Shown here in pieces: positions 29,472-45,863 of a stretch of DNA of 64,000 nt. A program made the translations under genes and the position numbers. A model generated the notes under the pieces. It did no database searches. It had not been told where the DNA came from and was given only the letters and a program-made list of their open reading frames with translations. Source of the DNA: Maribacter algarum (ex Lu et al. 2025) (nom. illeg.) (lineage in GTDB: Bacteria > Bacteroidota > Bacteroidia > Flavobacteriales > Flavobacteriaceae); contig CANMAW010000002.1 in the NCBI GenBank assembly GCA_947495915.1, positions 310,001 through 374,000 on the forward strand. Direction: 5' to 3'. Within the stretch, counting starts at the first letter, position 1; the number at the start of each line of letters is the position of its first letter.

Positions 29472-30089
29472 ATGTCTGGGTTAATAGGAAAAAAAGTAGG
29501 TATGACCAGTATTTTTGACGAAAATGGAAAGAATATTCCATGTACCGTTATAGAGGCTGGCCCATGCGTAGTTACCCAAGTCAGAACCGAAGAGGTTGAC
29601 GGGTATAGTGCCCTTCAACTTGGTTTCGATGACAAGGCAGAGAAACGTGCTAATAAGGCTCAAGCGGGTCACTTTAAAAAAGCAGGTACCTCTCCAAAGA
29701 AAAAAGTCGTTGAGTTCCAAGATTTTGAAGGAGAATACAAATTGGGAGACACATTAGGTGTTGACGTTTTTGTAGAAGGTGAATTTGTTGATGTAATTGG
29801 TACATCAAAAGGAAAAGGTTTTCAGGGTGTTGTTAAAAGACATGGTTTCGGCGGTGTTGGTCAAGCAACGCACGGTCAGCATAACAGATTGAGAGCTCCT
29901 GGTTCTATTGGTGCAGCTTCATATCCTGCAAGAGTTTTTAAGGGTATGAAAATGGCTGGTAGAATGGGTGGTGAACGAGTAACTGTTCAAAACCTTAAAG
30001 TCTTAAAAGTAGTAGCAGAGAAAAACCTTTTAGTAGTAAAAGGATGTGTACCTGGTCATAAGAATGCTTACGTAACTATTCAGAAGTAA
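29472..30089 (+). CDS. rplC: Ribosomal protein L3 (uL3)
   Basis: A 205-residue 50S protein that helps start 23S rRNA assembly and reaches toward the peptidyl-transferase centre. I chose the ATG at 29472 ([15 protein letters not shown]) because the in-frame upstream extension is unlike L3 and lies in the leader. [15 protein letters not shown] and [16 protein letters not shown] form the conserved central extension with its methylatable Gln region. The stop overlaps the rplD ATG (TAATG). Confidence 0.99.
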
Positions 30090-40381: not shown

Positions 40382-40390
40382 TAATAAGAA

Positions 40391-40482
40391 AGTAGTCATT
40401 AGTATTTAGACGTTAGAAGAATCTGTTTGAAATGTAAAAGTTTAGGATTCCAATAACTACGAACTAACAACTAGAAACTAAA
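40391..40482 (+). repeat. TTAGT-rich inverted repeat between rpsM and rpsK
   Basis: The 106-bp gap holds a left arm (about 40391-40420, with ATTAGTATTTAGACGTTAGA) and a right arm (about 40451-40482, with GAACTAACAACTAGAAACTA). The right arm read on the other strand is TTAGTTTCTAGTTGTTAGTTC, broadly similar to the left arm. Short TTAGT/CTAAC blocks like these recur between genes in many flavobacterial genomes. The arms are imperfect, so this may be a decayed repeat. Confidence 0.45.
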
Positions 40483-40487
40483 AAGAT

Positions 40488-40880
40488 ATGGCAAAGTCAA
40501 GTACTAAAACCACAAAGAAACGTAAAGTAATTATTGAATCTGTAGGTGAAGCTCATGTAACAGCTTCATTTAACAACATTATTATTTCATTAACTAACAA
40601 GAAAGGCGATGTAATTTCATGGTCTTCTGCTGGTAAAATGGGATTTAGAGGTTCAAAGAAAAACACGCCTTATGCTGCTCAAGTTGCTGCAGAAGATTGT
40701 TCTAAAGTTGCTCACGAAGCTGGTCTTAGAAAAGTAAAGGTTTATGTTAAAGGACCAGGAAATGGTAGAGAATCTGCAATTCGTGCGATTCATAACTCAG
40801 GTATTGAAGTAACAGAGATAATTGATGTTACCCCAATGCCACATAATGGTTGTAGACCTCCAAAAAGAAGAAGAGTTTAA
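40488..40880 (+). CDS. rpsK: Ribosomal protein S11 (uS11)
   Basis: A 130-residue 30S platform protein. [33 protein letters not shown] (quoted part [19 protein letters not shown]) and the C-terminal [18 protein letters not shown] are diagnostic. It is flanked by unusually long gaps on both sides (106 and 87 bp), each with secondary-structure potential. Confidence 0.99.
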
Positions 40881-40902
40881 TTAATTTTTTAATATTTCAC
40901 AG

Positions 40903-40953
40903 AAACGTATTAGCGGTTATCGAAGGAGGAAGCCTTAATTCATAACCACGTTT
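40903..40953 (+). promoter_or_regulatory. Structured leader upstream of rpsD (candidate S4-binding RNA)
   Basis: Three nested perfect stems are visible: AAACGT (40903-40908) with ACGTTT (40948-40953); GGTTAT (40915-40920) with ATAACC (40942-40947); and AAGG (40923-40926) with CCTT (40933-40936). The two outer stems are contiguous on the 3' side and separated by a 6-nt bulge (ATTAGC) on the 5' side. The apical region contains GGAGG, a Shine-Dalgarno-like core, but 38 nt before the ATG, too far to start translation. S4 is a known autoregulator in other bacteria, so an S4 leader is the natural reading. Confidence 0.6.
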
Positions 40954-40967
40954 CAAACACAAAGAAA

Positions 40968-41573
40968 ATGGCAAGATATACAGGACCAAAAAGTAAAATC
41001 GCTCGTAAGTTTGGAGAGGCGATTTTCGGAGATGACAAGTCTTTTGAAAAGAAAAATTATCCTCCAGGACAACATGGTAACGCAAGACGCCGTGGTAAAA
41101 AATCTGAATATTCAGTTCAGTTAATGGAAAAGCAAAAAGCTAAATATACCTATGGTATTTTAGAAAAGCAGTTCCGTAATTTATTCCAAACTGCTAAAAG
41201 AAAAGAAGGAGTAGCAGGGGAGATCCTTTTACAACTTTGTGAATCTCGTTTAGACAATGTTGTCTTTAGAATGGGAATTTCACCAACAAGAAGTGGAGCA
41301 AGACAATTGGTTTCACACAGACATATTACGGTGAACGGTGAGTTGGTTAATATTCCTTCTTACTCTTTAAAAGCAGGTGATGTAGTAGGTGTTCGAGAGA
41401 AATCAAAATCTTTACAAGCGATTCAAGATTCGTTAGCAGCTAGTAGTAGTGTATACGAATGGATTACTTGGAACTCTGAAAAACTTGAAGGAACCTATGT
41501 AACAGTTCCAGAGAGAATGCAGATTCCTGAAAATATCAAAGAACAATTAATCGTCGAGTTATACTCAAAATAA
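40968..41573 (+). CDS. rpsD: Ribosomal protein S4 (uS4)
   Basis: A 201-residue 30S assembly-initiating protein. [20 protein letters not shown] and [22 protein letters not shown] (quoted in part, [17 protein letters not shown]) form the N-terminal part. The S4 RNA-binding domain has [21 protein letters not shown] near residues 106-126. No Cys zinc motif is seen. Downstream rpoA is 17 bp away. The preceding 87-bp gap contains a strong multi-stem structure. Confidence 0.99.
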
Positions 41574-41590
41574 ACAACACCAATCCAATT

Positions 41591-42583
41591 ATGGCATTAT
41601 TTAATTTTCAGAAGCCCGATAAAGTAATAATGATCGATTCCTCTGATTTCGAAGGGAAGTTTGAATTCCGCCCTTTGGAACCTGGTTATGGATTAACTGT
41701 TGGGAACGCCTTACGTAGAGTTTTGTTGTCTTCTTTAGAAGGGCACGCAATTACTTCGGTAAGAATAGATAAAGTAGAGCATGAATTCTCTGTGATTCCG
41801 GGTGTTGTTGAAGATGTTACCGAAATTATTTTGAATTTGAAGCAAGTTCGTTTCAAAAAACAAATTGAAGATTCAGAAGCTGAAACAGTATCTATTTCAC
41901 TTAGTGGAAAAGATCAATTAACTGCTGGAGATTTTCAAAAATTCATTTCAGGATATCAAGTTTTAAATCCTGATTTGGTTATTTGTAATATGGAGTCAAA
42001 AGTTAGCATCAATATGGAGCTAGTGATTGATAAGGGTAGAGGTTATGTGCCTGCTGAAGAAAATAAGAAATCTGGTATGCCGATGGGCACCATTGCTATC
42101 GATTCTATTTTTACTCCGATCAAGAACGTGAAGTACAGTATTGAGAACTTCCGTGTTGAGCAAAAAACAGATTACGAGAAATTAGTTTTCGAAATTCAGA
42201 CTGATGGTTCGATTCATCCAAAAGATGCCTTAACTGAAGGTGCAAAGGTTTTAATTCACCACTTCATGTTATTCTCTGATGAGCGAATTACATTAGAAGC
42301 TGATGAAATAGCACAAACTGAAACTTATGATGAAGAATCTCTTCACATGCGTCAGTTATTGAAAACTAAATTAGTAGATATGGATCTTTCTGTTCGTGCA
42401 TTGAATTGCTTGAAAGCAGCAGAGGTTGATACACTAGGTGATTTGGTATCATTTAATAAAAATGATTTAATGAAATTCAGAAACTTCGGTAAAAAATCTT
42501 TAACCGAATTAGAAGAGCTTGTAATCAATAAAGGTTTAAGCTTTGGAATGGACTTATCAAAATACAAATTAGATAAAGATTAA
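41591..42583 (+). CDS. rpoA: RNA polymerase alpha subunit
   Basis: The 330-residue alpha subunit on which RNA polymerase assembles. The N-terminal domain has [23 protein letters not shown] and [13 protein letters not shown] (first quoted in part, [16 protein letters not shown]). The C-terminal domain has [21 protein letters not shown] and [18 protein letters not shown], the parts that touch UP-element DNA and activators. Length is normal for the phylum. Confidence 0.99.
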
Positions 42584-42641: not shown

Positions 42642-43160
42642 ATGAGACACGGAAAAAAAATCAATCATTTAGGTCGTAAGACGGCTCATAGAAAAGCGAT
42701 GTTAGCAAACATGGCATGTTCTTTAATTGAGCACAAAAGAATTAACACCACTGTAGCAAAAGCGAAGGCTTTAAAACAGTTCCTTGAGCCTTTAATTACA
42801 AAATCTAAATCAGAGAATAATCAAACCACAGAAAAAGGTATGCACAATCGTCGTATCGTTTTCAAAAGTTTGAGAGATAAAGAAGCTATAACAGAATTGT
42901 TTAGTACAGTAGCTGAAAAAGTAGCAGATAGACCAGGTGGTTATACTAGAATTATCAAATTAGGTAATCGTTTAGGTGATAACGCTGATATGGCTATGAT
43001 TGAACTAGTTGATTTCAATGAGCTTTACAATGCAGATAAGCCTAAGAAGAAAACTACAAGAAGAAGTAGAAGAGGTGGAGCATCTAAAACTGAAACAGCA
43101 CCTGTAGCAACGGAAACTAAAACAGACTCACAAGTAGCAGCTGATGATTCAGAAGAATAA
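42642..43160 (+). CDS. rplQ: Ribosomal protein L17 (bL17) with C-terminal extension
   Basis: A 172-residue 50S protein. The conserved part starts [21 protein letters not shown] and includes [24 protein letters not shown] (quoted part [17 protein letters not shown]). After about residue 130 a tail of some 40 residues follows: a basic part ([12 protein letters not shown]) and then an acidic, Thr/Glu-rich end. E. coli L17 is shorter, near 127 residues. A strong terminator at 43186-43218 ends the long r-protein run. Confidence 0.98.
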
Positions 43161-44453: not shown

Positions 44454-45779
<1,326 letters not shown>

Positions 45780-45803
45780 CTTCTTTTATGAAAAGAAGAT
45801 CAA

Positions 45804-45835
45804 AAAGCCTTTCATTTATTGAAGGGCTTTTTTTG
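45804..45835 (+). terminator. Intrinsic terminator after eno
   Basis: AAAGCCTTTCA (45804-45814) pairs with TGAAGGGCTTT (45820-45830), with one T-G wobble, around a TTTAT loop and followed by a T-run. A second short dyad (CTTCTTTT with AAAAGAAG) lies just before it, next to the eno stop. Confidence 0.9.
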
Positions 45836-45863
45836 TTACCATCACTAAGATTTGCTATCTTTT
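45833..45863 (+). promoter_or_regulatory. Probable promoter of the glycogen synthase gene
   Basis: TTG (45833-45835) and TATCTTTT (45856-45863, one mismatch to TAnnTTTG) are separated by 20 bp, ending 31 bp before the ATG. It begins inside the T-run of the eno terminator. Confidence 0.5.

Follow-up and report, generated by a model that had tools for sequence, protein, structure and literature searches.

A predicted S4 leader upstream of rpsD in a Maribacter genome: outer helix, apical core and spacing to the start codon

The gap between rpsK and rpsD in the window (the whole 64,000-nt stretch of Maribacter algarum DNA that was analysed) holds a hairpin that belongs to an already known, published family of predicted feedback switches, the S4-Flavobacteria leaders. 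It is probable that excess S4 clamps this hairpin and blocks an initiation of rpsD translation that does not depend on Shine–Dalgarno (SD) pairing; we infer both the binding of S4 and the repression. The full RNA comprises an outer helix (P1), a 5′ bulge mostly of 5–7 nt, an inner helix (P2) and a conserved apical core, GAAGGA ... CCUUAAUUC. A broader reading is advanced only tentatively and could well be wrong: the element would be larger than catalogued (P1, bulge, P2 and apical core), with P1 as the output clamped by S4 at the apex, a switch built for SD-independent initiation whose diverged form, present in part of the family, is missed by the current model.

Family assignment and genomic context

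The comparison with Rfam ribosomal protein leaders that had been proposed in a sequence-only reading of this DNA returned RF03141, the S4-Flavobacteria ribosomal protein leader, at 40915..40947 (+), scoring 46.7 bits where the gathering score is 35.2 (cmscan, Rfam 15). No other family exceeded its gathering score anywhere in the window, and this was the only place in the genome where RF03141 passed the cut-off. A 25.1-bit match elsewhere in the genome is antisense to an unrelated reading frame, presumably aldehyde dehydrogenase-like, and was taken as chance, as was a further match of 17 bits. The sequence-only reading had also suggested a match to a candidate S4 leader of Bacteroidia. The element does match a published candidate, but the family is S4-Flavobacteria and not S4-Bacteroidia (RF03139). 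RF03139 was reported neither between positions 30000 and 50000 of the window at E values of up to 10 nor across the full window at the gathering score; these searches would hide an overlapping match of lower score from the same clan. RF03139 matches were retrieved in two genomes of family f47 (L204 and L209).

The leader lies directly 5′ of rpsD, followed by rpoA and rplQ (Table 1), the order of the latter two having been checked in the window only. The neighbours of rpsD, which we take to be rpsK upstream and rpoA and rplQ downstream, were named from their sequences and from gene order.

Judging from name, gene and lineage, RF03141 presumably corresponds to the Flavobacteria S4 motif published by Eckert & Weinberg in 2020 (PMC7247131). 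The excerpted text of that study gives rpsD, rpoA and rplQ as the regulated genes and reports no rRNA likeness for the motif. Among the matches listed in mostly non-subscription literature, titles and the beginnings of abstracts contained no experimental test of an S4-Flavobacteria leader, and neither did the excerpted texts of PMC9976891 and PMC10931766.

Table 1. Coordinates in the window of the genes around the leader and of its parts
Feature	Position	Strand	Remarks
rpsK (S11), upstream gene	40488..40880	+	ORF; presumed name
rpsD (S4), regulated gene and presumed repressor	40968..41573	+	ORF; TIGR01017 match
rpoA, 3′ of rpsD, same direction	41591..42583	+	ORF; presumed name
rplQ (L17), downstream, alternative ligand	42642..43160	+	ORF; presumed name
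Outer helix P1, 5′ strand	40902..40908	+	7 bp with 40948–40954; covariation and permutation test; outside the Rfam model
Outer helix P1, 3′ strand	40948..40954	+	Ends at −14 relative to the ATG
5′ bulge between P1 and P2	40909..40914	+	6 nt; 6 nt in 70/160 leaders, 5–7 nt in 132/160
Helix P2, 5′ strand	40915..40920	+	Partner 40942–40947
Helix P2, 3′ strand	40942..40947	+	Partner 40915–40920
Unpaired C between P2 and core	40921..40921	+	Single unpaired base assigned in 139/160 leaders
GAAGG of apical core	40922..40926	+	Preferred: GAA with UUC 40939–40941, GG with CC 40933–40934; conserved in alignment A1
Conserved CCUUAAUUC	40933..40941	+	UUAA 40935–40938 is the bulge in the preferred reading
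GGAGG flagged in the sequence-only reading	40925..40929	+	In 8/160 leaders
A-rich linker AAACACAAAGAAA ahead of the start codon	40955..40967	+	Predicted unpaired

Distribution among relatives and the choice of ligand

Among 149 genomes of the family of the window, 143 had an rpsD match and 128 matched RF03141 with an E value of at most 0.1, 116 of them above the cut-off. The motif was found directly before rpsD in 122 matches (115 over the cut-off and seven weaker). All but one of the 116 strong matches were thus placed, and the genome holding the 116th had no rpsD match; 12 weaker matches either lay away from rpsD or came from a genome in which rpsD was not matched. In 15 of the 21 genomes with rpsD and no adjacent RF03141, our model R2 retrieved a diverged leader (E 2.5e-8 to 0.15; L060, L062, L064–L074, L076 and L080), none of which was matched by RF03141 at the 0.1 limit. 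Twelve of these (L060, L065–L067, L069–L074, L076 and L080) lay outside A3, the training set of R2. Model R1, built on 19 leaders, missed eight diverged leaders among 92 sources (L060, L065, L066, L070, L071, L073, L074 and L080). The diverged sequence is mostly CTAGAGGA or CTAAAGGA ... GACCTTAATTTAG. With 122 adjacent and 15 diverged leaders, 137 of the 143 rpsD-bearing genomes of the family therefore have one. Intermediate-looking leader forms occur in L082–L087.

No R2 match was found before rpsD in L061, L063, L075, L077, L078 and L079, whose rpsK–rpsD gaps measure 14–48 nt and whose genomes measure 1.3–2.2 Mb. This suggests leader loss with genome reduction in these six small Flavobacteriaceae genomes; other small genomes retain the leader.

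A draw of 196 genomes from the order yielded 31 strong R2 matches with E values no higher than 1.6e-6, each immediately 5′ of rpsD. The own family accounts for 30 of them, covering all of its 30 genomes in the draw, and f3 for the remaining one. The draw also gave six weaker matches, which may lie elsewhere than at rpsD. R2 gave no match in 20 stretches upstream of rpsD that represent 11 further families of the order (one to five each), with gaps of 17–55 nt and one gap unmeasured. Of 345 genomes drawn from the class, 23 had an R2 match at E up to 0.02. Eleven belonged to the own family and 12 to f35 (seven), f48 (four) and f20 (one), and all 12 outside matches preceded rpsD. Among named loci, R2 matched 48 of 80, including the Flavobacteriaceae genera Zobellia, Maribacter and Polaribacter, together with five of six Crocinitomicaceae, Fluviicola included, and none of eight Sphingobacteriaceae.

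In a quick S4 tree (142 rows, 60 of 137 inner branches open), the S4 of the window grouped with two Zobellia sequences (Flavobacteriaceae; SH-aLRT 87), and the fewest changes in leader state amounted to eight. The S4 of one f35 genome stood beside Fluviicola (Crocinitomicaceae) with a support of 99. Transfer of the leader to another order was therefore rejected for f35, since NCBI places Fluviicola in the order Flavobacteriales and we read the case as a difference of taxonomies. The leader may have been transferred to f48 and f20. The record L243, titled as a Chryseobacterium gleum metagenome-assembled genome, contains the leader; its S4 clusters with Crocinitomicaceae-like sequences, and the label looks wrong.

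The position of the leader bears on its ligand. The same RNA could be a ribosomal protein leader that responds to L17, the product of rplQ, or to some other protein, a reading that we consider unlikely. It draws on rpoA and rplQ lying downstream in the same direction, and on the excerpted text of Eckert & Weinberg, in which S4 is assigned as the ligand by precedent only, the ligand of multi-gene leaders is called uncertain and other phyla are predicted to have an L17 leader (PMC7247131). Against it stand the placement of the strong matches directly before rpsD, the near-constant distance to the rpsD start codon described below and the excerpted literature on Gammaproteobacteria and Firmicutes, where the role of S4 as ligand is established (PMC7247131, PMC10931766). 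By analogy, S4 would be chosen over L17.

Structure of the leader

The rpsK stop codon ends at 40880 and the rpsD ATG begins at 40968, leaving a gap of 87 nt in which three nested stems had been claimed. The stems are present and beyond chance, which confirms that observation. The outer one (AAACGT at 40903–40908 with ACGTTT at 40948–40953) is one pair longer than claimed, as G40902 and C40954 extend it to 7 bp; the middle stem (GGTTAT with ATAACC) and the 6-nt 5′ bulge were found as described (Table 1). The letters of the apical stem, AAGG at 40923–40926 and CCTT at 40933–40936, are also in place and complementary, but natural variants favour 40922–40924 with 40939–40941. The 53-nt element folds at −15.2 kcal/mol (z −3.49), with none of 200 shuffles as good; the fold signal was weaker in a 116-nt frame (z −2.01; 7 of 200 shuffles as good).

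The sequence-only reading had staked the leader on a gap conserved among relatives and on compensatory changes in the stems. Neither refuting outcome was seen: relatives do contain a conserved covarying RNA 5′ of rpsD. Among 78 aligned leaders, changes on both sides were detected in all eight pairs of P1 and all seven pairs of P2, but in none of the four pairs of the apical helix as drawn by Rfam. The covariation score was 0.494 versus 0.156 for shuffles, none of 500 reaching it, and slid structures scored no more than 0.104. In a set of 19 leaders chosen for P1 in one register, as alignment A2 was, 8/8 pairs of P1 and 2/7 pairs of P2 changed on both sides. Counts from alignments A3 and A5 lean towards the structure because both were fitted to it, and alignment A1 holds 85 of 86 chosen sequences, L070 being omitted for its long loop.

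A permutation test with 160 leaders also bears on P1. The best helix that the segment after the inner stem forms with the segment before it had a mean of 5.91 Watson–Crick pairs with its own partner, compared with 3.77 when partners were exchanged among species (maximum 3.98 in 200 permutations), the best helix being picked for own and permuted partners alike. P1 is uneven, its outermost pair being unpaired in 39 of 76 rows, the next in 20 of 76 and the innermost in 12 of 58; L088 and L149 matched over the inner part only. On this comparative evidence, we regard P1 as a real helix beyond the Rfam model, which has 33 positions, ends at P2 and includes neither P1 nor the 5′ bulge. P1 may be marked in the figures or additional files of PMC7247131, and the 33-nt model may be sufficient for S4.

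The 160 leaders were picked with an expression demanding GGA, CC and AAT, letters that are partly invariant for this reason. Six rpsD loci left out by the expression gave no match with R2, and both this set and the 212-leader set used below include several genomes of one genus (g127). These limits matter for a further alternative, a structural spacer or mRNA stability element (e.g. a processing barrier between rpsK and rpsD) with no protein ligand. Such an element would fit the stability of the hairpin and the excerpted remark of Eckert & Weinberg that some of these RNAs possibly bind no ribosomal protein (PMC7247131). We judge it quite improbable, considering that the apical core, its GGA, CC and AAT partly forced by the selection, is strongly conserved despite free variation in both helices, a pattern typical of binding sites. 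Sequence likeness of the core to 16S rRNA, suspected for a segment near the S4 site, was rejected: five query strings compared without gaps with the own 16S of the window did no better than letter shuffles (p 0.13–0.80), a point that counts against S4 as the ligand.

Two registers are conceivable at the apex. Rfam and the sequence-only reading pair AAGG with CCUU and bulge AAUU, and the alternative pairs GAA with UUC and bulges UUAA. The GAA/UUC reading keeps both disputed pairs in 78/78 and 34/34 rows of two overlapping sets of covariance-model matches, whereas AAGG/CCUU loses one pair in 8/78 and 2/34; these tables agree with the GAA/UUC preference, and the matches behind them were drawn with the Rfam register. 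Of 212 distinct leaders picked by a restrictive expression, GAA/UUC is intact in 212 and AAGG/CCUU in 189, the losses being mostly CCUG, for example in genus g127. That expression admits only A/G at bases 8, 9 and 10, T/C at 21, T/G at 22, T at 25 and T/C at 26 and 27, and the 212/212 count and the ‘invariant’ letters are valid under these conditions.

The three distinct leaders with C at base 26, from two genera, all have G at base 9; only the GAA/UUC reading accounts for this compensatory change. G at base 9 was found at 15 places in 339 family genomes, six of them leaders before rpsD (three with C26 and three with U26). A9 with C26 was found at eight places in the same genomes, none of which scores as a leader or precedes rpsD. 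In alignment A3, paired cells reach 93.8% for GAA/UUC versus 93.2% for AAGG/CCUU. We thus prefer GAA/UUC with a UUAA bulge, which appears to fit the natural variants better through few changes, and both registers may form. The minimum-energy fold predicted for the window is neither apical reading in full, as it pairs 40922–40924 with 40939–40941 but GAGG (40926–40929) with CCTT (40933–40936).

Spacing to the start codon and proposed mechanism

Across the 160 leaders, the distance from the core to the ATG averages 36.3 nt (s.d. 1.8, range 30–42), while the s.d. is 39 nt from the rpsK stop to the core and 4.3 nt for the loop. The last paired base lies 12–17 nt from the ATG in 144 leaders and is followed by an A-rich stretch, with A at −11 and −12 in 81% each, at −13 in 67% and at −3 in 73%. 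According to the excerpted text of a study of Flavobacterium johnsoniae, efficient starts are marked by A-3, A-6, A-12 and A-13, and rpsD has no SD in its start region (PMC9976891). A is found at −6 in only 29% of the 160 leaders, which counts against the explanation proposed here.

The transcription context of the leader differs among relatives. Of 51 longer upstream segments, 39 contain TAnnTTTG, which we take to be the Bacteroidota promoter element, against 5.9 expected by shuffling. It ends 46–55 nt ahead of the core in 37 of these 39, and 21 of the 39 segments additionally have TTG at the −33 distance. Terminator-like signals occur in 38 of the 51 segments versus 14.8 expected. Only one of 108 gaps under 110 nt has TAnnTTTG. 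In the long-gap relatives, it looks as if rpsD-rpoA-rplQ were a separate transcript. Many Flavobacteriaceae (e.g. L022, L111 and L131) have a gap of at least 110 nt with a terminator-like hairpin and TAnnTTTG just 5′ of the leader, an arrangement that the window lacks.

The spacing of the leader to the start codon is kept both in a short gap and near what looks like the start of its own transcript, which points to control of translation initiation. A transcriptional attenuator, in which the hairpin would set read-through into rpsD, could draw on the promoter-like site just upstream in many relatives and on the excerpted report that the Bacillus subtilis rplJL leader acts by transcription attenuation (PMC4538822). 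We hold it to be still less probable than a spacer, as a T-run (at least five T within 2 nt of the stem end) is found in only 1 of 160 leaders, the start-codon distance is near-fixed and the leader is also present in short gaps without a promoter-like site.

For control at translation initiation, we propose that S4 not taken up by 16S rRNA would bind the apical core, stabilise the hairpin and hold P1 closed. The stabilised hairpin would intrude on the 30S loading site at the A-rich start region, blocking loading because P1 extends at its base to about −14. Translation of rpsD would fall, and perhaps that of rpoA and rplQ too, with no SD pairing involved. In the window, the leader would act between genes in a short gap, whereas in many relatives it would stand at the beginning of an rpsD transcript of its own, given the promoter-like site just upstream.

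The GGAGG in the apical part

The sequence-only reading had singled out an SD-like GGAGG within the regulatory fold. It is where it was placed, 38 nt ahead of the ATG, but is not conserved: an apical GGAGG occurs in 8 of the 160 leaders only, arising from G at base 9 in seven of them and from the loop in the window. Neither GGAGG nor AAGGAG was found within 25 nt of the ATG in any of the 160, and a conserved SD site was rejected on these two counts. From the comparison of leaders, the GGAGG of this genome is most readily put down to chance. A device in which GGAGG pairs with the anti-SD and the fold either brings it close to the start codon or conceals it has in its favour the GGAGG of the window and a window 16S match ending in ACCTCCTTT, and is highly improbable given that the eight cases stem from different base changes, none lies at SD distance and the excerpted text of the F. 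johnsoniae study describes the anti-SD as sequestered in Bacteroidia and an rpsD reporter as similar across all bS21 backgrounds (PMC9976891).

Comparison with known systems

RF03141 and the window element share the sequence, the inner hairpin, the apical core, the place before rpsD-rpoA-rplQ and the lineage. The Rfam model departs from our comparative reading in its 33 nt without P1 and bulge and in an AAGG/CCUU register that fits the variants less well. The S4-Bacteroidia leader (RF03139) is likewise a hairpin before rpsD and belongs to the same Rfam clan (CL00119), but has another conserved sequence and fold.

More distant systems share the feedback and differ in the RNA. In the excerpted text on the Escherichia coli alpha operon, S4 also feeds back on its own operon, through a pseudoknot over the rpsM start that entraps the 30S subunit (PMC10931766), whereas the window has a hairpin before rpsD, after rpsM and rpsK. 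The Bacillus leader is likewise located before rpsD and mediates translational repression by S4, but there rpsD stands apart from the alpha operon (excerpts of PMC10931766); it carries a GUAA that imitates rRNA, and the excerpted text of Eckert & Weinberg reports no meaningful similarity to the Flavobacteria motif (PMC7247131). Within the same group, rpsU of F. johnsoniae is similarly subject to translational feedback by a ribosomal protein. According to the excerpted text, it differs in relying on an extended SD and on ribosomes lacking bS21, with rpsD among its SD-less reporters (PMC9976891).

The comparison turns a published candidate into a testable design: the outer helix is defined, one apical register is preferred and the distance to a start codon used without SD pairing is nearly constant. 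The nearly invariant bases are likely S4 contacts, and the design would permit a direct test of translational repression by a ribosomal protein where ribosomes hide the anti-SD.

Other observations in the window

The gap between rpsM and rpsK (40382–40487) is 106 nt long and ends in a ACTAACAACTAGAAACTA stretch. It was rejected as a repeat family in this genome, with three places against nine for the reversed control. At 45763–45836, a terminator-like hairpin with a weak Phe_leader match, below the cut-off, lies at the end of an enolase-like reading frame and is probably an ordinary terminator.
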